From NCBI GenBank assembly GCA_022841365.1, contig JALHRP010000012.1, positions 33,967 through 90,178 of the forward strand: a DNA stretch of 56,212 nt, in the 5' to 3' direction. Source of the stretch: Chitinophagaceae bacterium (lineage in GTDB: Bacteria; Bacteroidota; Bacteroidia; Chitinophagales; Chitinophagaceae). A program made the position numbers and the translations under genes. Of this stretch, positions 12,090 through 34,031 are shown in pieces. The notes below the pieces were generated by a model. The model was not told the origin of the DNA. It made no database searches and worked only from the letters and a program-made list of their open reading frames with translations. The first letter of the stretch is position 1, and each line of letters begins with the position of its first letter.

Positions 12090-12109
12090 CTAAAGACAGT
12101 ACAGGATAG
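12090..12109 (-). promoter_or_regulatory. Candidate GntR operator, copy 1 (tandem 10-bp words)
   Basis: Read on the minus strand the site is CTATCCTGTA CTGTCTTTAG, two adjacent copies of a 10-bp word. Near-identical pairs occur at 21441-21460 and 22487-22506, next to a GntR-type regulator gene. The site ends 18 bases before the TATTTTTG -7 box, so it covers the place of the -33 element for the isomerase/GH43/sulfatase operon. Assignment to the neighbouring regulator is inference. Confidence 0.5.
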
Positions 12110-12127
12110 TTAAAGATGCCTGATTAA

Positions 12128-12135
12128 TATTTTTG
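12128..12135 (+). promoter_or_regulatory. -7 promoter box of the isomerase-GH43-sulfatase operon
   Basis: TATTTTTG is an exact TAnnTTTG match, 68 bases before the ATG at 12204. No TTG box stands at the normal -33 distance; instead the tandem-repeat operator lies there, suggesting regulated use. Confidence 0.45.
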
Positions 12136-12203
12136 AAAGGGTATCTTTCGGGATATCAACTTTTCATTTTCGCTTATTTTTAGAAAAGCTTATTCTACCG
12201 CAA

Positions 12204-13628
12204 ATGAAAAAAACAGTAACGATTGGCTTGTACGGCATTGGCTTAGATACTTACTGGCCTCAGTTTGATGGCTTACTGCAAAAGCTGCAGGGGTATCAGC
12301 AAACCGTGTTTGAAAAATTATCGGCCATGGATGCAAAGGTGATCAATGCCGGTATTGTTGATCATCCGCAAAAAGCAAATGAAACGGCCGCCCTGTTTCA
12401 ACAGGAGGAGGTAGATCTTATTTTTCTTTCCATCAGTACATACGCCCTTTCACACAATGTATTACCGGTGGTACAAAAATTAAAAGTGCCGGTGATAATT
12501 CTTAATCTGCAACCGGAGAAAGCAATCAATTATCAAACCTTTAATGCCATTGGTGATCGTGGAAAAATGACGGGCGAATGGCTGGCTTATTGCCAGAGTT
12601 GTGTTGCTCCCGAACTGGCAAGTGTATTTAACCGTTCACATATTTCGTATCAGTTGATCAGCGGGTATCTTCACGAAGAGTACGTGTGGCAGCAGGCCTC
12701 AGCTTACGTGCAGGCAGCAGGTATAAAAAAAGCAATGGCGCATAACCGTGTGGGTTTATTGGGACATTATTATAATGGCATGCTGGATGTGTATAGTGAT
12801 GTAACACAACAGGCGGCTGTATTTGGCAATCATTTTGAATTGTTGGAAATGGGTATGCTCAAACAGTTGAGAGATGTAGTTACAGAGCAGGAGATCAACA
12901 GCAAGATCAATGATTTCAAAACTGCATTTGATGTATCTGCAGAATGTGAAACAGCCGAATTGCAACGTGCAGCTAAAACCTCAGTTGCACTGGAGAAGCT
13001 GGTTCATCAACATCAGCTGGGTTCATTGGCTTATTATTATGAAGGAGTGGGAGATGATGCTTATCTGGATATTGTTACCTCACTTATACCCGGGCTTACA
13101 TTGTTAACCGGCCGGAATATTCCTGTTGCAGGTGAGTATGAAGTAAAAAATGTACAGGCCATGAAGCTGATGGATTTGCTGGGATGCGGTGGTTCTTTCT
13201 CTGAATTTTATGCTTTGGACTTTAATGATAATATCATTCTGTTAGGTCATGATGGCCCGGCACATTTTTCAATTGCAGATGGTAAAGTGGGATTAGTTCC
13301 CTTGCCGGTGTACCATGGTAAACCGGGTAAAGGATTGTCTATTCAAATGAAAGTAAAGAGCGGGCCGGTAACTTTATTAAGTGTTTGCCAGGGTGGCGAT
13401 GGCAAGGTTTTTTTATTGGTTGCTGAAGGAATGAGTGAAGATGGAGAAACCTTGCAGATTGGAAATACCAACAGCCGCTACCGTTTTAATATGCCTGTCC
13501 GTGATTTTATTGATGCATGGAGCAAGGCAGGCCCCTCGCATCATTGCGCCATTGGAACAGGACATACGGCAACTGTATTTCATAAACTGGCCTGGATGAT
13601 GGGAATAGAATGTAAACAAATCTGTTAA
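12204..13628 (+). CDS. L-arabinose/L-fucose isomerase family-like protein
   Basis: A 474-residue cytoplasmic protein whose look fits the L-fucose/L-arabinose isomerase superfamily: an N-terminal Rossmann-like half (TIGLYGIGLDTYWPQFDGLL, DLIFLSISTYALSHNVLPVV, VPVIILNLQP), a middle domain with NRVGLLGHYYNGMLDVYSD, and a C-terminal half with YYYEGVGDDAYL and the end motif HHCAIGTGHTATVFHKLA. The family interconverts aldoses and ketoses with a divalent metal. The substrate is unknown, and a separate L-rhamnose isomerase exists in the same locus, so this one likely serves another sugar of the glycan, or has drifted in function. It is first in an operon with a GH43-type enzyme (26-base gap) and a sulfatase. 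Confidence 0.75.
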   Translation: MKKTVTIGLYGIGLDTYWPQFDGLLQKLQGYQQTVFEKLSAMDAKVINAGIVDHPQKANETAALFQQEEVDLIFLSISTYALSHNVLPVVQKLKVPVIILNLQPEKAINYQTFNAIGDRGKMTGEWLAYCQSCVAPELASVFNRSHISYQLISGYLHEEYVWQQASAYVQAAGIKKAMAHNRVGLLGHYYNGMLDVYSDVTQQAAVFGNHFELLEMGMLKQLRDVVTEQEINSKINDFKTAFDVSAECETAELQRAAKTSVALEKLVHQHQLGSLAYYYEGVGDDAYLDIVTSLIPGLTLLTGRNIPVAGEYEVKNVQAMKLMDLLGCGGSFSEFYALDFNDNIILLGHDGPAHFSIADGKVGLVPLPVYHGKPGKGLSIQMKVKSGPVTLLSVCQGGDGKVFLLVAEGMSEDGETLQIGNTNSRYRFNMPVRDFIDAWSKAGPSHHCAIGTGHTATVFHKLAWMMGIECKQIC

Positions 13629-13654
13629 GCTTTGTTGATGTTACACCTGAATAA

Positions 13655-15118
13655 ATGAATTGTATGACAAAATGCATAAATAAAAAGTGGTTGGTTGTTT
13701 TGATGACAGTCGTTTGTTGTTTTATGGTTACCGTAAATGGTGCCGCTCAACAAACGGTTGTTATAAATAATGCACAGCCACGAACAGATGTTAAAGGAAA
13801 GATTGTTGATGCACACGACGGTCGCATTATTCAGTTTGGAAAAATGTTTTACTGGTATGGCACAAAGTATGGCGCAACCAATGGCTTTACAACAGCGAAT
13901 GAATACGTTTGTTATTCTTCATCTGATTTAATAAAATGGAACTATGAAGGACCGCTGTTAAAAGACAAACCGGGTGGAGTGTATTATCGTCCGCATGTGG
14001 TGTACAATGCCCGTACAAAAAAATATGTGCTATGGTATAACTGGTATCCCAAATTATGGAACGGTCAGTTTGGCGTGGCTATAAGCGATTTGCCCACAGG
14101 GCCTTTTACAATTATAAACGATCATGTAACTGTAAAGCAAAATGCATTAGGTGTAGGTGATCTGGGTGTGTTTACAGATGATGATGGCAAAGCGTATCTC
14201 AGTTATAATACCATCAGCAATCATAAAGTATCTGTTGAATTGCTGAATGAAGATTATACAGCCAGCACGTTGCAGGGCAGTGATTTTATTGCAGAACATT
14301 GTGAAGCCGGCAGTATGTTTAAACGGAATGGTTTGTATTATCTGCTCACAGACTATACCTGTTGTTTTTGCACACAGGGTAGTGGTGCACAGGTATTCAC
14401 CGCAAAGAATCCGTTGGGGCCATATACCTGGCGACAGAACATCAACCGGTATCCCGGCGAATTATCGGCGGTGATCAATGATGGTTTTGCCAATGATAAT
14501 TTATTTGAAACACTGGATCCAAAGCAGCAGCAAGGCATTGAAATCTGGTTAAATAAATCTGCACCTGTTTCTTCCATCACCATTCAACAGTTCACCGGCA
14601 ACCGCAGCGGACAATGTGGCGAAGTGGATAATCCCGTGCTTCATCAACCCATTATTCAACATCAGTTTAAGATTAGCAGTTTGCAAAATGGAGAATGGAA
14701 AGAGCTGAAATTACAACCCGCTGCTGTTACACATTCATCTATGCAAACAACCTATGCATTGAAATTTTCCGCAGTTGTTACAGACCGTATCAGAATTCAA
14801 CCGTTGTACAACGATTCAGTTCAGCCAATTTTTGTAAGTGAAGTTTCTGTATCCGGCGGTCAAAAAAATCTGCGTATGTTTAAAACAGGAAAGCAACCGG
14901 GAAAACCGGTGATACCTGCACAGCAAACTTTTGTAATGCCGGTACAAACAAACAACGGCACACAATATATCTGGATGGGCGATCTCTGGGGCTCTGCAAC
15001 AGACGGCATCAAAGGCCACGATTACCAGTTCTGGAGTAAGCCGTTTGAATTTTACAGCAACGGTTTAATTAAACCCCTTGAATGGATTCATCAATACCGG
15101 TTAACAATTAAGAAATGA
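13655..15118 (+). CDS. Secreted GH43-type glycoside hydrolase with inserted beta-sandwich
   Basis: 487 residues with a signal peptide ending near VNGAAQQ (start ATG at 13655 or 13664). The five-blade propeller signs of clan GH-F are present: candidate base Asp in IVDAHDGRIIQFG, modulating Asp region LGVFTDDDGKAYLSYN, and candidate acid Glu in EHCEAGSMFKRNGLYYLL. After GAQVFTAKNPLGPY the propeller is interrupted by about 130 residues (roughly 275-400) that look like a discoidin/F5-8-type sandwich (ISSLQNGEWKELKL, DRIRIQPLYND), and then the last blade resumes (YIWMGDLWGS, GHDYQFWSKPF). Related proteins cleave arabinose, xylose or galactose links; specificity is not readable. Its last 4 bases overlap the sulfatase start (ATGA). 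Confidence 0.8.
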   Translation: MNCMTKCINKKWLVVLMTVVCCFMVTVNGAAQQTVVINNAQPRTDVKGKIVDAHDGRIIQFGKMFYWYGTKYGATNGFTTANEYVCYSSSDLIKWNYEGPLLKDKPGGVYYRPHVVYNARTKKYVLWYNWYPKLWNGQFGVAISDLPTGPFTIINDHVTVKQNALGVGDLGVFTDDDGKAYLSYNTISNHKVSVELLNEDYTASTLQGSDFIAEHCEAGSMFKRNGLYYLLTDYTCCFCTQGSGAQVFTAKNPLGPYTWRQNINRYPGELSAVINDGFANDNLFETLDPKQQQGIEIWLNKSAPVSSITIQQFTGNRSGQCGEVDNPVLHQPIIQHQFKISSLQNGEWKELKLQPAAVTHSSMQTTYALKFSAVVTDRIRIQPLYNDSVQPIFVSEVSVSGGQKNLRMFKTGKQPGKPVIPAQQTFVMPVQTNNGTQYIWMGDLWGSATDGIKGHDYQFWSKPFEFYSNGLIKPLEWIHQYRLTIKK

Positions 15119-16539
15119 GAAAACTTTTTTTTTATACAGTCTTGTTTTTTCTTGGATGTAATACTTCAAAGAAAGTACAAACAGGTACAGCAATTACTGA
15201 ACGCAAAAACATCATCATCATACTTGCAGATGATTTAGGCAGAAATGATCTGGCCTGTTATGGTAACCGGTTTATAGAAACGCCTAATCTGGATGCAATG
15301 GCCGGTGATGGAATGCAGTTTATGCATGCTTATTCAGCAGCACCACTGTGCAGCCCCACCAGAGCAAGTATTATCACAGGAAATAATCCTGCACGTATAA
15401 ATCTTACCGAGCATTTGCATGGCTACAGTCCGGCAGGACCCAAACAAAAATTAATTACGCCAAAAATTGAAACAGGATTGCCGGTACAACTAACAACAAT
15501 CCCTGAAGCGTTAAAACCGGCAGGTTATGCTACTGCTCATTTTGGTAAATGGCATTTGGGCGGAGGTGCTTCATCTCCGGCTGCACAGGGTTTCAGTACA
15601 GTATATGGAGGTGGAGTAGAAGGATTGCCCAAATCATTTTTCTATCCGTTCTTTCATGGCACACCTTATAAAGATTTACTGGCCGATACCAAAGAAGGAG
15701 ATTATTTAGATGATGCGTTAACATCAAAAGCCATTCAATACATCAGCAGTAAAAAAGACAGCAGCTTTTTTATTGAGTTAAATTTTTATGCACCGCATGT
15801 GCCTATTGAAGGAAAGCCGGCACTGGTAAATAAATACAAACAAAAACGCCAAGAAAAAAATTACAAAGGCCTGCCCGAAGATGAGTATGCCGCCATGGTG
15901 GAAAATATTGATTACAATGTTGGGCGCTTAATCAATTATTTAAAAGAAAACGGATTAGATAAAAATACCGTTGTATTGTTTGTGAGTGATAACGGTGGTT
16001 TAGATGTGCAGGAAGTGCCTGCCTTTGCAAAGTATACACCACCCACAACAAATACACCATTACGTGGAGGCAAAGGATATATTTACGAGGGCGGTATCAG
16101 AGCACCATGGATTGTTTGGGCACCGTCGGTTATTACAAAAAATAAACAGCAACATGCGCTTGTTACAACAGATGATGTATTTAATACCTGTATGCAGCTG
16201 GCAAATGTAAATGCGAATAGCCCTGATGGACTGAGCATTGTCCCCCTGTTGCAAGGTAAGAAGATGGCCGATAGAAATTATTATTTGCACTTTCCGCATT
16301 ACAGTCCGCAACATGGTAAACCCGGAGCAGTAGTACGCAGCGGCAATTATAAGTTGATTGAATGGTACGAAGATGGAAAATTAGAATTGTATAACTTAAG
16401 CAATGATGAAGGCGAGAAGAAAAATATTGCTGAGTCAAATCCTGAAATCGTACAACGGTTAAAAACTGATCTGGAGACGTGGAGGAAAAATATTGGTGCA
16501 AAAATGACTCAACCTAATCCCGGATACAGGCAAGATTAA
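15115..16539 (+). CDS. Lipoprotein type I sulfatase (formylglycine-dependent)
   Basis: 474 residues. The N-terminus carries a lipobox (FFLGC, Cys15), so it is probably a lipoprotein of the periplasm or outer membrane. The sulfatase fold is shown by IIIILADDLGRNDLACYGN (metal ligands), the sulfatase signature CSPTRAS with Cys79 as the residue matured to formylglycine, HFGKWHLGG, FYAPHVPIEG, VSDNGG and LRGGKGYIYEGGIRAPWIVWAP. It would remove sulfate esters from a carbohydrate. A separate formylglycine-generating enzyme or anSME is required and is not in the window. Its stop overlaps tail-to-tail by 4 bases with the kinase gene on the other strand. Confidence 0.93.
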   Translation: MRKLFFYTVLFFLGCNTSKKVQTGTAITERKNIIIILADDLGRNDLACYGNRFIETPNLDAMAGDGMQFMHAYSAAPLCSPTRASIITGNNPARINLTEHLHGYSPAGPKQKLITPKIETGLPVQLTTIPEALKPAGYATAHFGKWHLGGGASSPAAQGFSTVYGGGVEGLPKSFFYPFFHGTPYKDLLADTKEGDYLDDALTSKAIQYISSKKDSSFFIELNFYAPHVPIEGKPALVNKYKQKRQEKNYKGLPEDEYAAMVENIDYNVGRLINYLKENGLDKNTVVLFVSDNGGLDVQEVPAFAKYTPPTTNTPLRGGKGYIYEGGIRAPWIVWAPSVITKNKQQHALVTTDDVFNTCMQLANVNANSPDGLSIVPLLQGKKMADRNYYLHFPHYSPQHGKPGAVVRSGNYKLIEWYEDGKLELYNLSNDEGEKKNIAESNPEIVQRLKTDLETWRKNIGAKMTQPNPGYRQD

Positions 16540-17840
16540 GTTAAAGATTCAGCAGATTTAATATTTAAATAAGCACCCAGTGCTGTTGCCTGAGGAAATT
16601 CAACTGTTGCAATATTTATGTGCGGATAATTCTTCTGCAGATAATATTTAAAAAGACGGTTGGCCGCAAAACCTCCATCAATAAAAAAATCAGTCACTTC
16701 ATTTGTATTCACCAGGTCAATGGATTGCTTTAGTAAATCGGTAAGACCTTTTAGTAAAGCGGTATATGCTTCCTGTTCATTGCTGAAAACGGAGAGATTC
16801 CATTCTGTTTGTTGTTGTTGAGGCTTTGGGCCACTTCCCTCCATGCAAGCTGGAATAAATTCTGCTACATGAATAGTTGCAGGGTGCTCAATGGATTTAT
16901 AAAAATCTTCCTGCACATGGAAATGTGCTGCAATCCGTTTGGTTTGATATTCATGTTCTTTTCCTAAAAATATCCGGGATGCTTTTACAGGTTGTGCGTT
17001 TGCCTGCAGATAACACAAACTGTCTTTTTGTAATTGTTCCTGTGTGAGTGCTGTTGCATTAAACGGATTCAGGTTAATGCACCAGGTACCTGTGCTGATC
17101 AATAAAAAGGGTGCTTTGTATTTTTTTAAGTACGGTATCAGTGCAGATGAGCTGTCATGCAATCCTGTGCCGATCAGTATTCCATCTTTTTCACCTGCAA
17201 CAGGAACAGCAGTAAGCACCGGTATTTTTTGATCAATCCCTTCTGCCAATACCCATGAATGATAGGTTTGTTTTGTAACATCCCACAGCCCGGTATGGCA
17301 ACCAACTGATGTATAATCGCTCAACAGTTTACCTGTAAATAAATAACTTAAATATTGGGGGAGGTGTAAACTGTATTGAATAGTTTTCCAAACTTCCGGC
17401 TGTTTATGTTTCAGCCAGTACAATTGCAATCCGCTGTTAAGCATGCCCATAAACGGGCTGGCTGTTTCAAGTGCAAATTCATCGGCGTTGTGATTAAAAT
17501 ACTTTGATAAAAAATCTTTTTTAAGTTGTTCCGGAAAAGGTTTTAAATAATTGTACAGTGGAGTTAAAGGATTGCCATGTTCATCAATGTGTACAAAACT
17601 TGCTCCGTATGTTGCAAAGTTGATGGCTTTGATTTTATACGCCTCTTTTTTTGAGAGTAAATTATATTGGCCCAGTACCCATTCTTTCAGTTTAAGAATG
17701 TCTTCACAGGGAAAACCATCTTCATCTGTTGTTTCTGCAAACTGTTCACTGTATTCATCCACCACTTTTCCATCATGAGAAAAAACAAGGCATTTTTTAT
17801 TTGTTTTTCCAATATCGTATATCAGGTACACTTCTTCCAT
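16536..17840 (-). CDS. rhaB: Rhamnulokinase-like FGGY carbohydrate kinase
   Basis: 434 residues from the ATG at 17840, whose A is also the first base of the upstream gene's stop (TAATG overlap). The FGGY fold is seen in YLIYDIGKTNKKCLVF (phosphate-1 loop), ATYGASFVHIDEHGNPLTPLYNY, SPFMGMLNSGLQLYWLK, DYTSVGCHTGLWDV, GTGLHDSSSALIPY and the C-terminal DFFIDGGFAANRLFKYYLQ. It probably phosphorylates L-rhamnulose at C1. This follows from its position after L-rhamnose isomerase and before no other kinase in the locus; FGGY members for other ketoses look alike. The frame is open another 51 codons upstream but there it overlaps the isomerase without conserved sequence. Confidence 0.88.
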   Translation of the reverse strand: MEEVYLIYDIGKTNKKCLVFSHDGKVVDEYSEQFAETTDEDGFPCEDILKLKEWVLGQYNLLSKKEAYKIKAINFATYGASFVHIDEHGNPLTPLYNYLKPFPEQLKKDFLSKYFNHNADEFALETASPFMGMLNSGLQLYWLKHKQPEVWKTIQYSLHLPQYLSYLFTGKLLSDYTSVGCHTGLWDVTKQTYHSWVLAEGIDQKIPVLTAVPVAGEKDGILIGTGLHDSSSALIPYLKKYKAPFLLISTGTWCINLNPFNATALTQEQLQKDSLCYLQANAQPVKASRIFLGKEHEYQTKRIAAHFHVQEDFYKSIEHPATIHVAEFIPACMEGSGPKPQQQQTEWNLSVFSNEQEAYTALLKGLTDLLKQSIDLVNTNEVTDFFIDGGFAANRLFKYYLQKNYPHINIATVEFPQATALGAYLNIKSAESLT

Positions 17841-19114
17841 TACAGTCCGGTAGCGGTGGCGTTTGCACCTCTTGTTTTTATACGTTCTTCTCTGAATCCG
17901 TTTGCTGTAAAGCATTGCAATGGATTGATTGCATAGCCGTTTCTGTGTCTTGCTTCGGCTACAATGCTTCTTACATCTGTAAGGAATGCACACTGTAAAA
18001 TCTGCTCTGCAGTTACTACATCATTTGTTTGCTGTGCGGCATGTAATCGTTTTCTGTCTACAAGTAATGCTTTGGCATAAGCAATTGAAATATTTTCGAG
18101 TGATTGCAGTAAATCAGCAACAGGGTCTTTAGTGTTATGACTTGCATCAATCATGTAAGCAATCGTCTGTGCGGTCAGTTGTTCATCCTGTGCTGCATCA
18201 ACCAATTCATTAAAAATTAAAAACAACTGAAAGGGTTTTATGCTGCCGGTACTTAAATCATCATCGCCATACATGCTGCCGTTAAAATGAAAACCGCCAA
18301 GTGCATTAAAATGCATCAGTCTTGCAACAATCTGTTCAATATTGGTATTGGGTAAATGATGGCCCAGATCTACCAATACTTTTGCCTGCGAACCCAAACT
18401 GTCGCACAGTGATTTACTTGTTCCCCAATCAGGAATAATCATGCTGTAAAAGTTGGGCTCGTAAGGTTTATATTCAACCAGCATTGTCCAGTCGGCCGGT
18501 AATGCCTGATAAATTTTTTGAAGTGAGTCCAGTGTACGTTGATAGGCTTTCCTGAAATGATGCTGGCCTGGAAAATTACTTCCATCTGCAAGCCATACCG
18601 TAAGCACTTTACTGTTCAGTTGTTTGCCATGCTCAATCACTTCGATGTTGTGTTCAACTGCCTGTTGTCTTACCGCATCCTGAGTATGACAGAGCGATCC
18701 GAATTTATAAGAATGCTTTTGTCCGGCCTGATCCTGAAATGTATTAGAGTTGACTGAATCAATGAGTAAACCATGTTGCTGCAACTGTTGTTGAACAGCA
18801 GTGATATCTGTTGGAATATCCCATGGTATATGAAGAGAGATGGAATTGGTAGCACCGCTTAAACTTCTGATCAATCCAACATCCTCAATTTTTTCTTCTA
18901 AATTTCTGGGCTCGCCGCCACCTGCAAATCTTCCAAACCTTGTGCCGCCAGTACCCAAGGCCCAGGAGGGGATAGCGATCTGCAGCTGCTGCAGCTTTGA
19001 AATGATATTGTTTATATCAACTCCTTTTGCAGTAAGCATGGATGCTGTTGCCTGAAAGAATGGGAGGTGATGTTGTTGTTCCTGATTATGTTGTGCAATG
19101 CGATCCTGAATCAT
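17840..19114 (-). CDS. rhaI: L-rhamnose isomerase, RhaI type
   Basis: 424 residues of the xylose-isomerase-like TIM-barrel family that includes Pseudomonas-type L-rhamnose isomerase, unrelated in length and detail to E. coli RhaA. Landmarks are PSWALGTGGTRFGRF, SLHIPWD, LTVWLADGSNFPGQ, the ligand segment LVEYKPYEPNFYSMIIPDWG, VLVDLGHHLPNTNIEQIVA and GGFHFNGSMYGDDDL. It converts L-rhamnose to L-rhamnulose. It is followed directly by the kinase (1-base overlap) and preceded by the aldolase/dehydrogenase gene with a 92-base gap in which I see only a small hairpin (GCATG/CATGC). Confidence 0.92.
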   Translation of the reverse strand: MIQDRIAQHNQEQQHHLPFFQATASMLTAKGVDINNIISKLQQLQIAIPSWALGTGGTRFGRFAGGGEPRNLEEKIEDVGLIRSLSGATNSISLHIPWDIPTDITAVQQQLQQHGLLIDSVNSNTFQDQAGQKHSYKFGSLCHTQDAVRQQAVEHNIEVIEHGKQLNSKVLTVWLADGSNFPGQHHFRKAYQRTLDSLQKIYQALPADWTMLVEYKPYEPNFYSMIIPDWGTSKSLCDSLGSQAKVLVDLGHHLPNTNIEQIVARLMHFNALGGFHFNGSMYGDDDLSTGSIKPFQLFLIFNELVDAAQDEQLTAQTIAYMIDASHNTKDPVADLLQSLENISIAYAKALLVDRKRLHAAQQTNDVVTAEQILQCAFLTDVRSIVAEARHRNGYAINPLQCFTANGFREERIKTRGANATATGL

Positions 19115-19206
19115 ACAGCAAGCAAAATTATAAAATGAAGATAGTAAAGTCTTAAAAACAGCACTGCATGGACATGCAACGCTTTATGATTGATTATGAC
19201 TGAAAT

Positions 19207-21312
19207 TTATCGTAAGAAACTTCCTGCAAAACCGCCATCCACGTTAATAATATTTCCGGTTGATTTTTTCAGAGAGCCATCTGTTAAAGCAAGTACCGCT
19301 TTGGCAATATCTTCCGGCAATATCTCTTCGTTCAGCAAAGTGCGTTTTGCATAGTAAGCCGGTAGTTCTTCTACACTTACACCATATGCTTTTGCCCGGC
19401 CTTCGGCCCAGCCGTTTTCCCAAATCTTACTGCCACGAACAACCGCATCGGGGTTTACTACATTCACTCTTATTTTATCTTTACCAAGTTCTGCAGCAAG
19501 TAAACGACTCATATGTATTTGTGCTCCTTTTGCGGTTCCGTACGCCACATTGTTTGGGCCGGCATACAATCCGTTTTTGCTGGCAATATTTACAATATCT
19601 GCATCTGTTTTTTGTTGACGGATAATTTCTGTGAATTGCTGAGACAAAATAAATTGTGCTTTCACCAGAATATCTTCCAGCAAATTCCAGTCTGCAAGTG
19701 TGGTTTGTTCCAATGGTTTTGAAATGGATATGCCTGCACAGTTCACCAGTATATCAATGCCCCCAAACTGCAGAATCATTTCTTCAAAACTATGTTGCAG
19801 TTCTGTTTGTTTTGTTACATCGGCTTTTACACCGGTGCAAAAGTCTTTACCGTATTTCTGTTGCAGTTCAGTTGCAGCAATATCTGCATTGTCTCTGTCG
19901 CTTAATACTACACAGGCACCGTTTTGCAGAAACAGTTCACAAATGGCATTGCCAATTCCGCCTGAAGCACCTGTTACATAAGCAATTTTTCCTGCCAGTG
20001 ATTTTGGTTTGGGCATGCGTTGCAGTTTGGCTTCTTCAAGCAACCAGTATTCAATGTTAAAGGCTTCCTGTTCACTTAAGCCGCTGTATTCGCTGATGGC
20101 TTCTGCACCCTTCATAACGTTGATGGCGTTGATGTAAAACTCTGCCGCTACTCTTGCTGTAAATTTATCTTTGGCAAACGTAAACATTCCCACACCCGGA
20201 TAAAGAAATACAACAGGATTGTTATCTCTTAATGCAGGGCTGTTGCTGTGTTTGCATCGTTCATAATAGGCAGTATAATCGTTACGGTAATCCTGTACCT
20301 GTTGCTGAATGATGCTGATAGTTTCTGCTGTATGGATGGCTGCATCAGCAGGGATTTGTAAAATTAACGGACGGATTTTAGTGCGTAAAAAATGATCGGG
20401 ACAACTGGTGCCTTTTGGACCTAACACAGCAAGATCATTGCTGTTGATGAATTCCAGCACACGTGCATCATCTGTAAAATGGCCAATCATTCGTACCTGC
20501 GATGAAACCAAACCACGCAGCACCGGTGCAAGTGCAACCGCCTGTTGTTTGCGTTGATCTGCAGGTAATGCATTTATTTTTTCTCCGCCAAATACCGGTT
20601 TCTTTTTTCCGTATTGTGTTTCTAAGTAAGCCGCTGCTTTCTCAATCGTTTCTAAGGTATTGATATAACATTCGTACGAATCTTCAGCCCAGGTAAACAA
20701 ACCGTGTCCGCCGAGAACAACACCTTTTAATGCCGGATTATTTTTTACCGCCGCTTCTAATTGTAAACCCAGATCAAATCCCGGTTTTTGCCAGGGAATC
20801 CAGCCAATGGTTCCGTTAAATAAATCGGCAGTAATCTGTTCGCCGTCTTTTGCTGCCGCAATGGCAATAATAGCATCGGGGTGTAAATGATCAATGTGTT
20901 TAAATGGTAATAAACCATGGAGAGGTGTATCAATGGAAGGTGCTGCACTTTTTAAATCGTGCAGACAATAATTAAACAGATCCACCATCTCATCTTCAAA
21001 AGCCAAACCTCTGTAACGCTTTTTGAGTTCATGCAGTTTTTGTGTGTACAATACAGCGCAACCTTTTTTAGTAAGTGTGCCAATATCGCCACCGCTTCCT
21101 TTTACCCACATTACTTCTTCTGTGTTTCCGGTAACGGGATTAACAGCCGTTGTTTTGCAGCTTGTGTTACCACCGGCATAATTGGTAATGCGCAGATCGG
21201 CACCAAGTAAATTAGAGCGGTAAATAAATGAATCTACTTCGTTGTTAATTGATGCTGCATGGGCGTCGTCCCATAAATACTGTACGTATTTGAATGCAAT
21301 CGTATTGGGCAT
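19207..21312 (-). CDS. rhaEW: Bifunctional rhamnulose-1-phosphate aldolase / L-lactaldehyde dehydrogenase
   Basis: 701 residues in two domains. Residues about 1-400 are a class II aldolase/adducin domain (ITNYAGGNTSCKTT, VMWVKGSGGDIGTL, TPLHGLLPFKHIDHLHPDAI, GVVLGGHGLFTWAED) with His ligands for zinc. Residues about 435-700 are a short-chain dehydrogenase (AYVTGASGGIGNAICELF, LVNCAGIS, NIASKNGLYAGPNNVAYGTAKGA with the YxxxK pair, GNIINVDGGFAGSFLR). Characterised RhaEW proteins split rhamnulose 1-phosphate to DHAP and L-lactaldehyde and oxidise the latter to L-lactate. It is first in the minus-strand operon, divergent from the GntR gene, with a tandem-repeat element between them. Confidence 0.94.
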   Translation of the reverse strand: MPNTIAFKYVQYLWDDAHAASINNEVDSFIYRSNLLGADLRITNYAGGNTSCKTTAVNPVTGNTEEVMWVKGSGGDIGTLTKKGCAVLYTQKLHELKKRYRGLAFEDEMVDLFNYCLHDLKSAAPSIDTPLHGLLPFKHIDHLHPDAIIAIAAAKDGEQITADLFNGTIGWIPWQKPGFDLGLQLEAAVKNNPALKGVVLGGHGLFTWAEDSYECYINTLETIEKAAAYLETQYGKKKPVFGGEKINALPADQRKQQAVALAPVLRGLVSSQVRMIGHFTDDARVLEFINSNDLAVLGPKGTSCPDHFLRTKIRPLILQIPADAAIHTAETISIIQQQVQDYRNDYTAYYERCKHSNSPALRDNNPVVFLYPGVGMFTFAKDKFTARVAAEFYINAINVMKGAEAISEYSGLSEQEAFNIEYWLLEEAKLQRMPKPKSLAGKIAYVTGASGGIGNAICELFLQNGACVVLSDRDNADIAATELQQKYGKDFCTGVKADVTKQTELQHSFEEMILQFGGIDILVNCAGISISKPLEQTTLADWNLLEDILVKAQFILSQQFTEIIRQQKTDADIVNIASKNGLYAGPNNVAYGTAKGAQIHMSRLLAAELGKDKIRVNVVNPDAVVRGSKIWENGWAEGRAKAYGVSVEELPAYYAKRTLLNEEILPEDIAKAVLALTDGSLKKSTGNIINVDGGFAGSFLR

Positions 21313-21440
21313 ATGGTTGATAATAAAATTGGTTCTTTAAAATACTGCAGTCAATGGGTTATGCCGGTAACTGCAATGTCAATTAATTGAATCTTCTGTT
21401 CGCAAAATTTACACTAATTTGGCAAAGTTTCCATTCTTAT

Positions 21441-21460
21441 CTGTCCTGAACTATCCTGTT
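21441..21460 (+). promoter_or_regulatory. Candidate GntR operator, copy 2
   Basis: CTGTCCTGAA CTATCCTGTT is a perfect tandem of two 10-bp words, differing from each other at 3 positions. It ends one base before the ATG of the GntR-type gene, so binding would block or autoregulate that gene, and it stands 128 bases before the aldolase start on the other strand. Relative to the aldolase operon its orientation is the same as that of copies 1 and 3 to their operons. Confidence 0.55.
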
Positions 21461-21461
21461 T

Positions 21462-22478
21462 ATGTGGAAGTTTCAAACTGAATTAAATAACAAGCAACCG
21501 AAGTACCGGCAAATTATCAATGCCATTATCAATGATATTGAGAAGGGTATTCTTAAAAAAGATGATACTCTTCCTTCTATCAATGAGCTTAGTTTTGAGT
21601 ACGATATTGCCCGTGATACGGTGGAGAAAGCATACAAAGAGCTGAAAGAAAAAGGCATCATCACTTCCGTAAGAGGCAAAGGTTTTTTTGTAAATGGTTT
21701 AAAAGGCAGTAAGCTGCGCATCCTGCTGGTGCTGAATAAACTCAGCGCCTACAAAAAATTTATTTATTATTCCTTTATTAATACCCTTGGTACAAAAGCA
21801 ACGGTAGACCTGCAGGTGCACCATTACAATGCGGTTCTGCTTAAGAACATACTGGAAGAAAGCAGAGGTAAGTATCATTATTATGTAATCATGCCGCACT
21901 TTTATGAAGGGCTTGAAACGGTGAATATTATTGAAGAGCTGGAAAAAATTTCTAAAGATGAACTGGTGATACTGGATAAACACCTGCCGGAGTTAAAAGG
22001 GAATTATTTAAGCGTATACCAGGATTTTGAAAATGATATTTATGAGGCACTTGAAAGTGGGGATGATGTATTGAGTAAATACAAAGAGTTGTGTCTGGTA
22101 TTTCCTGAGAATGATAATTATCCGTTTGAAATTGTAAAAGGATTCCGAAAGTATTGCAGTCATTACAACAAGAAGCATTCCGTAATACAAAGTACTGAAA
22201 CCGTAAAGCTGCAGAAAGGCGTGTTGTTTATTGTTATTGAAGAAGCCGATTTAGTGGATATTGTAAAAAAGGCAATGGAAAAAGGGTACGAGTTGGGGAA
22301 ACACATCGGCATCATCTCATTTAATGAAACTACATTAAAAGAAATACTCGCTGGCGGCATCGCTACTATCTCTACACATTTTGAAGCAATGGGCTCTACT
22401 GCTGCCACTTTAATTTTGGAAAAACAAAGTATAAAAATCAAAAATCCGTTCTCGCTGATCCGCCGCCCATCACTTTGA
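21462..22478 (+). CDS. GntR-type transcriptional regulator with sugar-binding-like domain
   Basis: 338 residues. Residues about 1-75 are a GntR winged helix (PKYRQIINAIINDIEKGIL, LPSINELSFEYDIARDTVEK, GIITSVRGKGFFVNG). Residues about 85-335 resemble a LacI/periplasmic-binding effector domain (LRILLVLNKLSAYKKFIYYSF, LCLVFPENDNYPFEIVKGF, GVLFIVIEEADLVDIVKKA, IGIISFNETTLKEIL). Such chimeras control sugar catabolism in Bacteroidota. Its place between the rhamnose operon and SusC, and the tandem repeats beside it, make it the likely local regulator, with L-rhamnose or a pathway intermediate as effector (inference). Whether it represses or activates is open. Confidence 0.9.
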   Translation: MWKFQTELNNKQPKYRQIINAIINDIEKGILKKDDTLPSINELSFEYDIARDTVEKAYKELKEKGIITSVRGKGFFVNGLKGSKLRILLVLNKLSAYKKFIYYSFINTLGTKATVDLQVHHYNAVLLKNILEESRGKYHYYVIMPHFYEGLETVNIIEELEKISKDELVILDKHLPELKGNYLSVYQDFENDIYEALESGDDVLSKYKELCLVFPENDNYPFEIVKGFRKYCSHYNKKHSVIQSTETVKLQKGVLFIVIEEADLVDIVKKAMEKGYELGKHIGIISFNETTLKEILAGGIATISTHFEAMGSTAATLILEKQSIKIKNPFSLIRRPSL

Positions 22479-22486
22479 TGTTTTTT

Positions 22487-22506
22487 CACAGGAAAGTACA
22501 GGACAG
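22487..22506 (-). promoter_or_regulatory. Candidate GntR operator, copy 3
   Basis: Read on the minus strand, CTGTCCTGTA CTTTCCTGTG is again a tandem of the 10-bp word. It lies in the 101-base gap between the regulator and susC-like genes. A degenerate -7 box, TAATTTAG at 22526-22533, follows after 19 bases, matching the 18-base gap at copy 1. Confidence 0.55.
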
Positions 22507-22579
22507 CCAACATTTCAATCTCAGTTAATTTAGTTCTGTCAGAAAGTTTATTTCTGTTTTAAACTGCTTAATTACTTAA

Positions 22580-25500
22580 ATGATTGCTATGCAAAAAAAG
22601 TTCCGGCTCAACAGCCTTTTATGTATGAGTATACTACTCTGCAGTCTGTTTACCTTTTTTTCAGTAGAGACATTTGCACAGGAAGACAGGGTTACTTTAA
22701 CAGGAACTGTTACAGGCCCCGATGGAAAACCTGTTGAAAAAGCATCTGTTACAACTGCCGATAAAAAATTTGGTACAGCCACCAATGAACTGGGAAAATT
22801 TAGTTTAAATGTACCCCGTTCTTCAAGCCGTACCCTTGTTTTTAGTAGTGTAGGTTTTAAGACTGTTGAAATTAAAACCGGAACAACAACTGTTTTTTCA
22901 GTTTCACTGGAAGAACGCAATAACGAACTGCAGGATGTAGTGGTGGTTGGATACGGTACCAGAAAAAAAGAAGATGTTAGTGGTGCTGTAACACAGGTAA
23001 ACAGTGATATGATTACTAAGCAACCAATTACCTCCATTGATCAGGGATTGGCAGGTATGGTACCCGGTGTTACATTAAGAGAAGGTTCAGGTGCACCCGG
23101 CAGTGGCCCCGAAATTTTAATCCGTGGTATCAATACTTTTCGCAGTAATAAACCGCTCATTGTAATTGATGATATTATTTATGAAGACGGAAATGATCAG
23201 AACAACAACCCGCTTGCACTGATTAATCCCGATGATATTGAAAGTGTAACAGTATTAAAAGATGCCGCAACAAAAGCAATCTACGGTTCAAGAGCAACTG
23301 CAGGTGTAATTGTTGTAAAAACAAAAAGAGGAAAATCGGGCAAGCCGAAAATTACGTTTTCCACCAGTCTCGGATTTTCAAACATCATGGCGTTTGATGT
23401 ACCCGATGTATTGAATGCATCAGAGCTGGCTCAGTTCAGAAAAGAAAAAGCAATTGATGATATCAGAGCAACGAACAATGCAAGCTTTTCAATTTACAGA
23501 GATCCTAAAATTCCTGTTTCCGATACAGCGATCTTACGTTTTTTACCTGCTGCTTCTGCATATATTAACCCATCACAATTTGGAACCGGTACAAACTGGT
23601 TTGATGTAATTACACGCCAGGCTATTACACAAAACAGCAGCATTAGTGTAAGCGGCGGTAATGCAAACACCCGTTTCTTCATCAGTGGTAATTATCTCAA
23701 CCAGGAAGGCGTAATCATCAACAACGATATCAAACGTTATTCATTCCGTTCAAATCTTGATTTGAAATTATCAGAGAAACTTCGTTTTGGTTTAAATATC
23801 AATCCTTCACGTACAGAACAAAATCGCCCTGCAGATGATCCCGGCGCAGGACAGTTCAGTGCATACGGTACCATCACCAGCACGTACTGGATTGATCCAA
23901 GTGTATCAGTGTATAAACCAAACGGAGAATTTAATTATACAACTCAGGGACCGCTTACCAGTAACTACACAGCCAACCCGTTGTATCAGATATTAAAAGA
24001 ACGTGAGGTAAGACGTTCTACACAATTGTTAACAGGAACATTCCTTGAGTTTGAACCGGTGAAAAATCTGTTCTTCAAAACAAATTTATCCTGGAACTAT
24101 ACACAGTCCCGCTCTCAAAACTTTAAGCCGGCTAATCTGGTAGGCGATGGAAGTTTAACTCCGCAGTTTCCAAATATTGATAGTGCAAGAGCTGTACTGT
24201 TTAACCAATCCATCAACAACATCATCAGCGATAACACTGTTCGCTACCGCATTGAATTTAAACAGCACAATGCAGAAATCCTTGGCGGTTATCTGGTGCA
24301 GCAGCAAACAGGAGAAAACTCAACCATGAGTGCCAAACGCATTATTGATGAGAATTTTTATCTGCCCGATTTCAATAACGTATCACAGGCTACTGTCGGA
24401 AACTTTACCGGAAGTGAAGAGTTCTCCAGATTCAGACTGGTATCTCTCATCGGTCGGGTGAATTATTCGTATGCCAATAAATATCTTGCAAACTTTTCTA
24501 TCAGAAGAGATGGGTCATCCCGTTTTGGAAGAGATGTGCAGTATGGTGTATTCCCTGCAGGTTCTGTTGCATGGCGTGTAACTGAAGAAAAATTCATGAA
24601 CCGTGTAAAAGGGAACTGGCTCGATGAATTAAGACTTGAAGTTGGTTATGGCATTACCGGTAATAACAACGGCGCTTCTGCTTATGGCTTTCTTGGTTCA
24701 GTAGGTAATTCATCTTATATGTTCGGTAATACGTTTACACTTGGTAATACGTTAACCGGTTTGCCCAATCCTTTAATTACATGGGAAGAGAGCAAGCAGT
24801 TTGATGTGGGATTGAATGCAACTTTATGGCGAAAGCGGATCAACCTCGCCTTTAACTATTATCAGCAGATTACCGGTGGATTGCTTGCAGATATTCCTTA
24901 TTCATGGATCAGTGGTTTTGGTTCGGTGTTAGGTAATCAGCAAAGCCGTGTACAAAACCGTGGTTTTGAAGTACAGGTAGATGTAGCAGTTGTGCGTAAC
25001 CGTAATGTTACATGGACAACCAGCATCAACGCATCAAAATATGTAAATAAAATTCTTGACTATTATTTACCCGGCGGTTTCTTAAGTGGCTTTGCAGGAA
25101 ATGGAACAGCGGTTGCTATTTCACAACCGGGCGAGCCAATTGGTATGTTTCGTGGTTTAAAAGTGTTGGGTCTTTATACTGCAGCAGATATTGCAGATCC
25201 TTCTGTTCCCAAATATGCAGGTGCACGTGAAGGCAGTTTAAAATATTTAGATGGCAACGGTAACGGTGTGCTGGAAAATAACTTTGAACAGGATTATGTG
25301 ATCCTTGGCAATCCGCATCCGGATTTAATGTTTGGCTGGAACAACCAGGTACGTTGGAAAAAATTAAACTTCCGTACCATTTTTGCCGGACAGTTAGGTG
25401 GATTGATTTATGACCTGCGTCGTGAAATCATGTGGAATGTAGATGGTAATTTTAATATTGATCGTCAGATGCTCGACAGATGGCGCCCGGGCGATGATCC

Positions 25501-25837
25501 AACAACAAAAACATTTCCGGGTACAGCATCACCATCCGGTTCTACAACAAGGTTTGTTCGTTTTCCTGCAAGTAATAAAATTTATGATGGTTCCTATATC
25601 GGGTTAAAGAATTTAACCATCGGATATACATTGCAGGGGCCAACCAGAAATAACAAACGATTACTTGAAACCTGTGAGTTTTATATCAGCGCCAGAAATG
25701 TATTCTATCTGTCTGCTTATAAATATGGTAATCCGGAAGTGCGTCGTTCAAATGATGGATCTGCTTTACGCAGCATCAACTACGGCAGCTATCCTGTTTC
25801 AAGAACCGTTACTGTAGGATTTTCAATCACATTCTAA
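22580..25837 (+). CDS. SusC/RagA-type TonB-linked outer-membrane transporter
   Basis: 1085 residues. A signal peptide (about 1-34, ending TFAQ) is followed by a carboxypeptidase-regulatory-like domain (VTLTGTVTGPDGKPVEKASV to VFSVSLEER), the TonB-box region LQDVVVVGYGTRKKEDVSGAV, the plug (RGINTFRSNKPLIVIDDIIYE, VLKDAATKAIYGSRATAGVI) and a long barrel that ends in TVTVGFSITF. It imports oligosaccharides across the outer membrane with its SusD partner, whose gene begins 11 bases after its stop. Either ATG 22580 or 22589 may be used. The ligand is inferred to be a rhamnose-containing oligosaccharide from the enzymes around it. Confidence 0.96.
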   Translation: MIAMQKKFRLNSLLCMSILLCSLFTFFSVETFAQEDRVTLTGTVTGPDGKPVEKASVTTADKKFGTATNELGKFSLNVPRSSSRTLVFSSVGFKTVEIKTGTTTVFSVSLEERNNELQDVVVVGYGTRKKEDVSGAVTQVNSDMITKQPITSIDQGLAGMVPGVTLREGSGAPGSGPEILIRGINTFRSNKPLIVIDDIIYEDGNDQNNNPLALINPDDIESVTVLKDAATKAIYGSRATAGVIVVKTKRGKSGKPKITFSTSLGFSNIMAFDVPDVLNASELAQFRKEKAIDDIRATNNASFSIYRDPKIPVSDTAILRFLPAASAYINPSQFGTGTNWFDVITRQAITQNSSISVSGGNANTRFFISGNYLNQEGVIINNDIKRYSFRSNLDLKLSEKLRFGLNINPSRTEQNRPADDPGAGQFSAYGTITSTYWIDPSVSVYKPNGEFNYTTQGPLTSNYTANPLYQILKEREVRRSTQLLTGTFLEFEPVKNLFFKTNLSWNYTQSRSQNFKPANLVGDGSLTPQFPNIDSARAVLFNQSINNIISDNTVRYRIEFKQHNAEILGGYLVQQQTGENSTMSAKRIIDENFYLPDFNNVSQATVGNFTGSEEFSRFRLVSLIGRVNYSYANKYLANFSIRRDGSSRFGRDVQYGVFPAGSVAWRVTEEKFMNRVKGNWLDELRLEVGYGITGNNNGASAYGFLGSVGNSSYMFGNTFTLGNTLTGLPNPLITWEESKQFDVGLNATLWRKRINLAFNYYQQITGGLLADIPYSWISGFGSVLGNQQSRVQNRGFEVQVDVAVVRNRNVTWTTSINASKYVNKILDYYLPGGFLSGFAGNGTAVAISQPGEPIGMFRGLKVLGLYTAADIADPSVPKYAGAREGSLKYLDGNGNGVLENNFEQDYVILGNPHPDLMFGWNNQVRWKKLNFRTIFAGQLGGLIYDLRREIMWNVDGNFNIDRQMLDRWRPGDDPTTKTFPGTASPSGSTTRFVRFPASNKIYDGSYIGLKNLTIGYTLQGPTRNNKRLLETCEFYISARNVFYLSAYKYGNPEVRRSNDGSALRSINYGSYPVSRTVTVGFSITF

Positions 25838-25848
25838 ACTTGTTTGTC

Positions 25849-27339
25849 ATGCGTCATATATCTGTTATCTCTTTTTGCCTGATACTGTTGTTGAGTGCAG
25901 GATGTAAAAAAGATTTTTTAACTCTTGATCCGGTGGATCGTTACAGCTATTATAATTTTCCGCAGAATGAAAGTCAGGTTGATCAGGCTGTTGTGGCCTG
26001 TTACCGTAAACTTTATCCCATCTACAACAATCACATGTGGATATGGGGTGATATGCTGAGTGATAATACATCTTTCCGCTATAATCCCAACGACAGAGGT
26101 GGACTTGCAACTGAACAGCTCGATGAATTTGTTGCTGCTGCTAATGAAGGAAACATTGCCGGCATGTACCGTGAAAGTTATGAAGCCATTGAACGTTCCA
26201 ATTATGTACTGCAAAGTATTGCAGATATTCCGTTCACTTCCGATTCGCTCAAAGCCATCCGTGAAGGTGAAGCATTGTTCTTCCGTGCGTTTCATTATTT
26301 TAATCTGGTGCAGTTGTATGGCGATGTTCCCATAGTAACCAAAGTGTTAATTGAACCTGATCCGAATGCAGCCATCAACTATCCACGTAAACCGGCAGCA
26401 CAGGTTTACACTGATGTGATTATTCCTGATGCAACATCTGCTATCAATAAACTTCCTGCAACAGTACCGCTTGCACAAAAAGGCCGGTTGACTAAAGATG
26501 CTGCAAGAATATTGCTGGCAAAAGTGTACATGGTGCAAAGACGTTTTGCAGATGCATTGCCTTTGCTGAATGCAGTAACTGGTTATTCATTACATGCGCA
26601 GTATGTCAATAATTTTAATCCTGCTACAAAAAACGGTGTTGAATCTATTTTTGAAATTCAAACATTCCCCGTACCATCACCAACAGCTTATTCGTTTACA
26701 TTCATGGGTTCATGGACTCCCTGGGGCACAGGTACAACCATCTGGCCCGGTGGCAGTAACAGCCGTGGTGGTTTAAATCAGCCAACAGCAGATTTAAATA
26801 ATGCATACGAAGCCAATGACAACAGAAAGGCAGTAACAATCGGAAGCACAGGCACCGGACCGAATACCATTTTATTTTTACGCAAGTTTTTATATTGGGA
26901 TGCAGCAACCAGATTAAACCCATGTCAGTGGCCCATTTACCGTTATGCTGATGTGTTGCTGATGCAGGCAGAATGTTTAAATGAAGCCGGCTTCCCTAAT
27001 GCACAAGCCTTCACCAATTTAAATTTAGTTCGTACAAGAGCAGGCTTGCCTAACAAAACGCAGGGGAACGTACTACCTGCACTGGCAGTGAATTCGCAAG
27101 ATGAATTCAGACTTGCGATTGAAAGAGAACGTAGAGTTGAATTTGCGGGTGAAGCACACCGCTGGTTTGATTTGGTAAGAACCGGCAGAGCTGCTGCTGT
27201 TATGCAGGCACATGGCACTGCAGAGAAAGCAATCAAAACAACGCTTGATATAAATGCGTATACAAATATTAAACTGGTCTTAGGTATTCCGTTTCGTGAA
27301 ATACAGCAGTTTGGCTATCCGCAAAACAGCGGCTGGTAA
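25849..27339 (+). CDS. SusD/RagB-type glycan-binding lipoprotein
   Basis: 496 residues from the ATG at 25849 (a TTG at 25840 would add three). The signal peptide ends in a lipobox LLSAGC, so the protein is lipid-anchored and, as for other SusD proteins, caps the SusC channel at the cell surface. SusD features are KKDFLTLDPVDRYS, EALFFRAFHYFNLVQLYGDVPIV, TKDAARILLAKVYMVQ, the Trp/Gly-rich ligand area around SWTPWGTGTTIWPGG, YRYADVLLMQAECLNEAG and the C-terminal ERRVEFAGEAHRWFDLVRTG. It directly follows the SusC-type gene, and a terminator hairpin follows it. Confidence 0.95.
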   Translation: MRHISVISFCLILLLSAGCKKDFLTLDPVDRYSYYNFPQNESQVDQAVVACYRKLYPIYNNHMWIWGDMLSDNTSFRYNPNDRGGLATEQLDEFVAAANEGNIAGMYRESYEAIERSNYVLQSIADIPFTSDSLKAIREGEALFFRAFHYFNLVQLYGDVPIVTKVLIEPDPNAAINYPRKPAAQVYTDVIIPDATSAINKLPATVPLAQKGRLTKDAARILLAKVYMVQRRFADALPLLNAVTGYSLHAQYVNNFNPATKNGVESIFEIQTFPVPSPTAYSFTFMGSWTPWGTGTTIWPGGSNSRGGLNQPTADLNNAYEANDNRKAVTIGSTGTGPNTILFLRKFLYWDAATRLNPCQWPIYRYADVLLMQAECLNEAGFPNAQAFTNLNLVRTRAGLPNKTQGNVLPALAVNSQDEFRLAIERERRVEFAGEAHRWFDLVRTGRAAAVMQAHGTAEKAIKTTLDINAYTNIKLVLGIPFREIQQFGYPQNSGW

Positions 27340-27375
27340 TATTTTCAGATCTATGGCAAGCAATCGTTACAGCCG

Positions 27376-27404
27376 AAGGCCGGATTCGTTCCGGCTTTCT
27401 TTTT
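27376..27404 (+). terminator. Rho-independent terminator after susD-like gene
   Basis: Stem GCCGGA / TCCGGC with a 5-base loop, followed by TTTCTTTTT. It sits 37 bases after the SusD stop and before the GH78 gene, so much transcription may end here and the downstream genes would be at lower dose. Confidence 0.75.
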
Positions 27405-27422
27405 AAAAGATTATTTTTAAGA

Positions 27423-29750: not shown

Positions 29751-29815
29751 CAAACTATAATTCGGCATTTAAAAGTATTACCAATTCTTCATTATTAATT
29801 ATTAATTCTTCATTC

Positions 29816-33996
<4,181 letters not shown>

Positions 33997-34031
33997 TTTT
34001 TTAAGTGGCCATAAACAATAAAAATGAACAC

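Follow-up and report, generated by a model that had tools for sequence, protein, structure and literature searches.

The window, a stretch of 56,212 nucleotides (nt) from a Chitinophagaceae bacterium (assembly GCA_022841365.1, contig JALHRP010000012.1, positions 33,967 to 90,178), carries a rhamnose utilization locus with three 20-bp sites, each composed of two adjacent 10-bp words. We assign a probability of roughly 0.7 to these sites being direct-repeat operators of the regulator encoded at 21462–22478, a protein that joins a GntR winged helix to a LacI-type C-terminal domain. Judged from sequence comparison, a conserved and oriented direct-repeat operator of a GntR/LacI-type rhamnose regulator is very probable. 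Should the regulator use such operators, activation would be about twice as likely as repression.

Operator sites in the window

The original prediction had placed three sites of two words each in the locus, and their sequences, coordinates and strands were all verified. The sites and the putative regulator gene are:

12090–12109, reverse strand: operator 1, words CTATCCTGTA CTGTCTTTAG, preceding the isomerase/GH43/sulfatase operon
21441–21460, forward strand: operator 2, words CTGTCCTGAA CTATCCTGTT, in the gap between the divergent rhaEW (reverse strand) and gntR (forward strand), with the gntR ATG 1 nt further on
22487–22506, reverse strand: operator 3, words CTGTCCTGTA CTTTCCTGTG, preceding susC
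21462–22478, forward strand: gntR, coding for the putative operator-binding regulator (338 residues; GntR winged helix, C-terminal domain of the LacI/periplasmic-binding-protein type)

Operators 2 and 3 fit the consensus exactly, and operator 1 has three mismatches, all in its weak second word. As predicted, the window holds no further word pair: a consensus scan with up to three mismatches returned exactly these three sites. The expectation from shuffled windows was 0.02 sites, a value that is partly circular because the consensus was derived from the same three sites. At the same threshold the genome (4.56 Mb) gave seven matches, so that the motif is not scattered, and the reversed control pattern gave none. 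The four matches outside the locus (L003, L004, L006 and L007) lie within open reading frames (ORFs), L003 near an ORF start, and were therefore rejected as operators. At up to three mismatches, the three locus sites are thus the only promoter sites in this genome.

Each site precedes a separate unit, namely isomerase/GH43/sulfatase, rhaEW-rhaI-kinase with the divergent gntR, and SusC, and its orientation relative to the operon is constant, both as originally described. A -7-like box at 18–19 nt had been described for two of the sites; the third, on the rhaEW side, has a box equally far away but degenerate:

12128–12135, forward strand: -7 box TATTTTTG, 18 nt from operator 1, six of six consensus letters
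22526–22533, forward strand: -7 box TAATTTAG, 19 nt from operator 3, five of six consensus letters
21414–21421, reverse strand: weak -7-like sequence CAAATTAG, 19 nt from operator 2 on the rhaEW side, four of six consensus letters

Conservation in relatives

A search of genome contigs found 324 relatives, of which the best 80 loci were used. A RhaEW homologue was present in 61 of the 80. In 51 of the 80, and in the window, gntR and rhaEW diverged from a shared gap of 20–1200 bp; five loci with longer gaps were excluded. Motif discovery by expectation maximization (EM) with random starts recovered TcTATCCTGTACTGTACcGt from these 52 rhaEW/gntR regions, with a score of 906 versus 64–66 for shuffled sequences.

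Within the window's own family the regulator was found in 71 of 147 genomes (E 1e-60), and 80 of the 87 regulator places outside the window were sampled. Here rhaT was divergent to gntR in 28 loci, and a separate de novo search of these regions gave CCgTCATGtACTgTCATG (score 378 versus 71 shuffled). A tandem site was present in 27 of the 28, the exception being L192. Compared with the rhaEW sites, CCTG has become CATG, mostly in both words together: the core letter is A in both words of 23 of the 27 sites, C in both in L173 and L185, and mixed in L178 and L191. The orthologous loci, where the original prediction proposed to look, thus carry the motif in their rhaEW/gntR and rhaT/gntR regions, though not beside every homologue. 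EM on 46 other own-family regulators without a rhaT match gave no tandem word motif. A second conserved “motif” upstream of gntR, AACTTTCCCAGGCCCAGCCT, was read as rhaT coding sequence and rejected as an operator, because in the loci displayed it lies beyond the rhaT/gntR gap, with rhaT on the other strand.

Among the best 80 relatives, the closest regulator homologues are those of Emticicia (L008–L010; 54–57% identity). The consensus itself is absent there. Diverged tandem words, TACAGGAGAG TACATGARGA on the operon strand, precede rhaEW (L008 at 7473, L009 at 7616, L010 at 7591); read by eye, they have the usual orientation and a -7-like box at 18 nt. Two adjacent gntR paralogues stand next to rha genes in five loci of Hyunsoonleella and Algibacter (L066, L069, L081, L082 and L087).

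Promoter geometry

The words face away from the regulated operon in every one of the 79 rhaEW and rhaT promoters. Of these promoters, 71 have TAnnTT starting at a distance of exactly 19 nt from the site, and 78 at 18–20 nt. Further site clusters came from the fetched loci and the window, some of the loci having been chosen for holding the motif, none for geometry; 80 of these 103 clusters had TAnnTT at 18–20 nt towards the operon, and 7 of 103 had it on the opposite side. The reversed pattern had it at this distance in none of 11 clusters. In the available text of PMC9723704, the flavobacterial sigmaA -7 box TAnnTTTG spans -12 to -5. With the transcription start site inferred from this box, the operator would cover -51 to -32 and be centred at about -41.5, with fixed spacing and orientation to the -7 box. 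A centre at -41.5 is the classical position of a class II activator.

We propose that the three operators are bound by the protein encoded at 21462–22478, a one-component rhamnose regulator whose GntR winged helix is joined to a LacI-type sugar-binding domain. With two 10-bp words repeated in the same direction, the operator would place a pair of winged helices head to tail on one face of the DNA, separated by one helical turn. The bound regulator would contact RNA polymerase in place of the -33 element, as in class II type activation, and the effector may be rhamnose or a catabolite. This contact, and hence activation, is suggested by the rigid orientation and spacing. Autorepression would be possible in the window, where a site touches the gntR start codon.

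The same regulator and operator could also act as a classical repressor, which covers the -33 region and blocks the polymerase until released by rhamnose or a catabolite. AraR and NanR are repressors, the site does cover the -33 region, and in the window it abuts the gntR start codon as well. However, a steric block needs no single orientation, no spacing constant to ~1 bp and no one-sidedness across differing promoters, and the gntR start lies anywhere from 1 to 552 nt from the site. We consider repression possible, but less likely than activation.

Tandem words versus a palindrome

The operator has the general form SYRTC[C/A]TGYA CYRTM[C/A]YG. Lag-10 identity was compared with the best palindrome identity in four classes of sites: 0.62 versus 0.60 in the rhaEW operators (33 distinct sites), 0.76 versus 0.48 in the rhaT operators (26), 0.69 versus 0.41 in the other sites with a -7 box (71), and 0.67 versus 0.41 in the window (3). 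The pattern that called the other sites is biased towards tandems; more weight therefore falls on the de novo results, the word arrays and the concerted core letters.

Arrays of four words in one direction, in 10-bp steps, were found in L020, L023, L043, L046, L051 and L057, and one of three words in L033, all words being read by eye. Where an array has a -7 box (L023, L033, L043 and L057), the box belongs to the promoter-proximal word pair. In such arrays, docking of the regulator would extend away from the promoter. The core letters of word 1 and word 2 agreed in 85% of 130 distinct sites versus 56% after permutation, a value reached in none of 500 permutations, and in 77% versus 64% (1 of 500) in the 71 other sites alone; both tests are inflated by kinship among sites, and the pattern let each word vary. 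The word arrays and the concerted word changes support the head-to-tail tandem structure of the original prediction. In L179 (2371–2412) and L183 (4865–4906), two tandem operators near gntR are separated by 22 bp, which distinguishes them from the arrays with 10-bp steps.

The rhaEW operators are ambiguous in this respect. They read TCCTGTAC-T-GTACCGTA, near the AraR consensus tGTaCGTAca, and an imperfect palindrome about GTAC-T-GTAC is possible, with an identity of 0.60–0.64 over eight pairs (best value of the class 0.60). The operator might thus really be an AraR-like palindrome (TGTAC-N-GTACR), its tandem look being secondary. The palindrome was not upheld in the other site classes, where lag-10 identity is the higher value; the rhaT motif came from a de novo search, free of the pattern that favours tandems; the arrays run in one direction, and the cores of both words tend to shift jointly. 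We regard a palindrome as improbable. The rhaEW operators also have a period of 5 besides that of 10. A period-5 reading (CTGTM four times) was rejected: lag-5 identity is 0.66 in the rhaEW sites but 0.35 in the rhaT sites, versus 0.76 at lag 10, which makes 10 bp the basic unit.

Regulon and co-occurrence with the regulator

Pfam was used to scan 73 genes that follow other operators having a -7 box. Among the matches listed were at least 15 SusC-type plugs, at least 14 GH78 rhamnosidase domains, at least 12 sulfatases, at least five RhaT, at least five RhaEW aldolase domains, at least three KduI, at least two FBPase, and at least one each of GH106, GH28 and rhamnogalacturonan lyases. Some of the RhaT and RhaEW cases represent the same promoter type as the 79 described above. 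In L198 (1499–1518) an operator-like site precedes a sigma factor gene (Sigma70_r2, with a match to extracytoplasmic function factors) and not a sugar gene.

The exact motif was found in 40 of the 147 own-family genomes (68 sites listed; control 0), by a strict pattern that misses the window's own sites. The regulator was present in 38 of these 40, compared with 71 of 147 overall (p 6e-13). In a phylum-wide scan with a looser pattern and at most five candidates scored per genome, 25 of 45 motif genomes had the regulator versus 51 of 395 (p 8e-14); nine genomes matched the control pattern. Both p values are too small, because the genomes are related. Co-occurrence, the orthologous loci and the largely rhamnose-related targets support the view, already taken in the original prediction, that the sites probably define a rhamnose regulon of the GntR protein.

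In the 79 promoter–regulator pairs, residue 54, in the recognition helix of the regulator, followed the core letter of the words: Val/Ile with C in 54 of 54 and Ala with A in 25 of 25 for word 1, and in 52 of 54 and 23 of 25 for word 2. Outside these pairs, L179, L182 and L183 are exceptions, being of the Ala type with CCTG sites. As a specificity switch this was rejected and is kept as a hint, since the tree has only three changes and one well-supported independent pair.

Other families typically have tandem words that cover a -35-like region, as in the PhoB boxes and AraC sites. The sites might accordingly be those of some other protein, such as a response regulator or an AraC factor, with the GntR gene as a mere neighbour. 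The rhamnose regulators described in the available text of Rodionov et al. 2013 (PMC3870299) are AraC, DeoR or LacI proteins, and genome G016 has a site with no regulator found. Against another factor stand the co-occurrence of motif and GntR gene, their adjacency in 79 divergent regions, the lack of any other regulator among the 11 genes examined, and the partial link between residue 54 and the word core. It is therefore very unlikely. As for a chance similarity of three sites, one of them with a poor second word, 0.02 were expected in the window and the sites are conserved across many genera, which makes it negligible.

Several further observations speak against the operators being those of this regulator, or against its acting as an activator. 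Outside the 79 pairs, 71 of 88 regulator homologues had no site within 700 bp (two mismatches), nor did 28 of the 31 among them that have rhaEW, rhaI or rhaT in the locus; in L118 and L120 the sites are farther than 700 bp from the homologue. Some site-less homologues may use other words. In the phylum-wide scan, 20 of the 45 motif genomes were without the regulator, and in the own family this held for G016 and G031 (E 1e-15). The G031 site lies within a reading frame, but the site of G016 (G016:C2:92070, L216) is well formed, with a -7 box and a gene start. The rhaEW promoter of the window is the one of the 79 without TAnnTT at 18–20 nt, its -7 box being degenerate. A TTG at -33 is missing from all 78 operator promoters, but it has just 18 occurrences in 152 control promoters; its absence was therefore rejected as proof of activation. 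AraR, a protein with the architecture of the window's regulator, is a repressor that binds a palindrome. To these the palindromic look and the period 5 of the rhaEW operators are to be added.

A wider reading is more tentative, and we put it somewhat below even odds: a widespread class of GntR/LacI-type sugar regulators in Bacteroidota may use extendable head-to-tail arrays of 10-bp words at -41.5 for class II activation, the AraR-like dimer giving up its two-fold symmetry on the DNA, with regulator and words co-evolving.

The regulator and the genes of the locus

The N-terminal winged helix of the regulator matched Pfam GntR at 1.1e-14 (residues 14–77). Its C-terminal part matched Peripla_BP_3 at 2.1e-4, under the gathering score. 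The AlphaFold model has a mean pLDDT (predicted local distance difference test) of 88.7, and its fold matches CcpA, LacI, PurR and the AraR effector domain (3tb6); the AraR DNA-binding domain (4egy) was among the PDB sequence matches. A single match to the regulator was found in its own genome at E 1e-8. Besides gntR, no regulator was recognized among 11 genes examined at 12204–30880. The units behind the operators are as follows:

12204–13628, forward strand: isomerase, a distant relative of L-arabinose and sulfoquinovose isomerases, with low scores
13655–15118, forward strand: GH43 glycoside hydrolase
15115–16539, forward strand: sulfatase
16536–17993, reverse strand: FGGY sugar kinase, probably a rhamnulokinase, in part by position
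17840–19114, reverse strand: L-rhamnose isomerase of the RhaI type, TIGR02629 with 496.8 bits, under the cut-off of 646.75
19207–21312, reverse strand: RhaEW, rhamnulose-1-phosphate aldolase/lactaldehyde dehydrogenase, 701 residues, exceeding the NCBIfam cut-offs of NF006189 and TIGR02632
22580–25837, forward strand: SusC-type TonB-linked outer membrane protein
25840–27339, forward strand: SusD-type lipoprotein
27423–29750, forward strand: alpha-L-rhamnosidase, Bac_rhamnosid6H
29816–30880, forward strand: RhaT rhamnose-proton symporter
30781–33996, forward strand: GH2 family glycoside hydrolase
34005–35198, forward strand: FMN (flavin mononucleotide)-dependent (lactate) dehydrogenase, LldD-like, with homologues adjoining rha genes in relatives

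Operator 1 thus precedes an operon of an isomerase weakly similar to L-arabinose and sulfoquinovose isomerases, a GH43 enzyme and a sulfatase. The true start of the kinase is probably downstream of the listed GTG, as the frame overlaps the isomerase. Behind operator 3 the order is SusC, SusD, rhamnosidase, RhaT, GH2 and lactate dehydrogenase. An LldD-like gene near rha genes, in the window and in relatives, is consistent with lactate as a product of RhaEW.

Comparison with known systems

In the PhoB pho box, a tandem direct repeat takes the place of the -35 element, at a constant distance from the -10. Unlike the case here, PhoB is a response regulator, and its box has an 11-bp period and the opposite orientation to the promoter.

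The rhamnose regulons of Rodionov et al. 2013 share the pathway, including RhaEW. As in the window, their targets serve rhamnose uptake and catabolism and a regulator gene is adjacent; the regulator here, however, has a GntR winged helix in place of an AraC, DeoR or LacI family domain. The DeoR-type RhaR motifs are direct repeats with a 10–11-bp period, and “gntr” has no occurrence in the text available of that paper (PMC3870299). In Bacteroides, FucR (BT1272) and ManR (BT2103) are GntR-family monosaccharide regulators, according to the available part of PMC3878776; they concern sugars other than rhamnose, and the likeness is one of family, motifs not being part of the comparison. In the literature covered, in part as partial texts and with subscription papers and RegPrecise outside the search, neither a rhamnose regulator of the GntR type nor a tandem operator of an AraR-type protein was found. 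For the rhamnose pathway, the regulators described there belong to the AraC, DeoR and LacI families, from which the type proposed here differs. What we predict is an operator code, together with its regulator, for the use of rhamnose and rhamnose-containing polysaccharides in many Bacteroidota.

A head-to-tail operator had been called atypical for GntR factors in the original prediction. It is atypical, as a mirror-symmetric site would be expected for a regulator of this type, but precedents exist: direct-repeat operators are described for NanR, FarR and NagQ and for the MocR-type proteins GabR, TauR and PdxR in the accessible parts of PMC4494728, PMC5320631 and PMC8012715. NanR of E. coli, of the FadR type, assembles cooperatively as dimers on the tandem direct repeats (GGTATA)3 (PMC8012715, text available in part). 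It has other words and another C-terminal domain, and it is described as repressing from a position downstream of the RNA polymerase site, whereas the period here is 10 bp, the domain LacI-type and the site over -33. The MocR-type proteins use direct repeats at helical-turn spacings, and some activate, as far as the available text of PMC5320631 goes. They differ by an aminotransferase-like domain, and their repeat number, orientation and spacing are more variable.

AraR has the same combination of GntR winged helix and LacI-type sugar domain. This architecture is the one given for the AraR subfamily in the part of PMC4494728 available. In Bacillus subtilis, AraR represses from the palindromic consensus At(T/A)tGTaCGTAcaa(A/T)T (PMC4218819, available in part). 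Its half-site TGTAC resembles the CCTGTAC word junction of the operators here, but here the words are repeated head to tail and keep a constant orientation and distance to the -7 box. The window's regulator has the winged helix and the LacI/GalR-like C-terminal domain of the subfamily and lacks the AraR-type palindromic operator. As the architecture is shared and the operator type differs, we did not assign it as AraR-type. A symmetric dimeric protein architecture would be paired with an asymmetric, oriented operator, so that the way in which GntR dimers read direct repeats could be tested in a second subfamily of different structure. The rigid geometry at -41.5 leads us to predict activation, although AraR, the characterized protein of this type, is a repressor.

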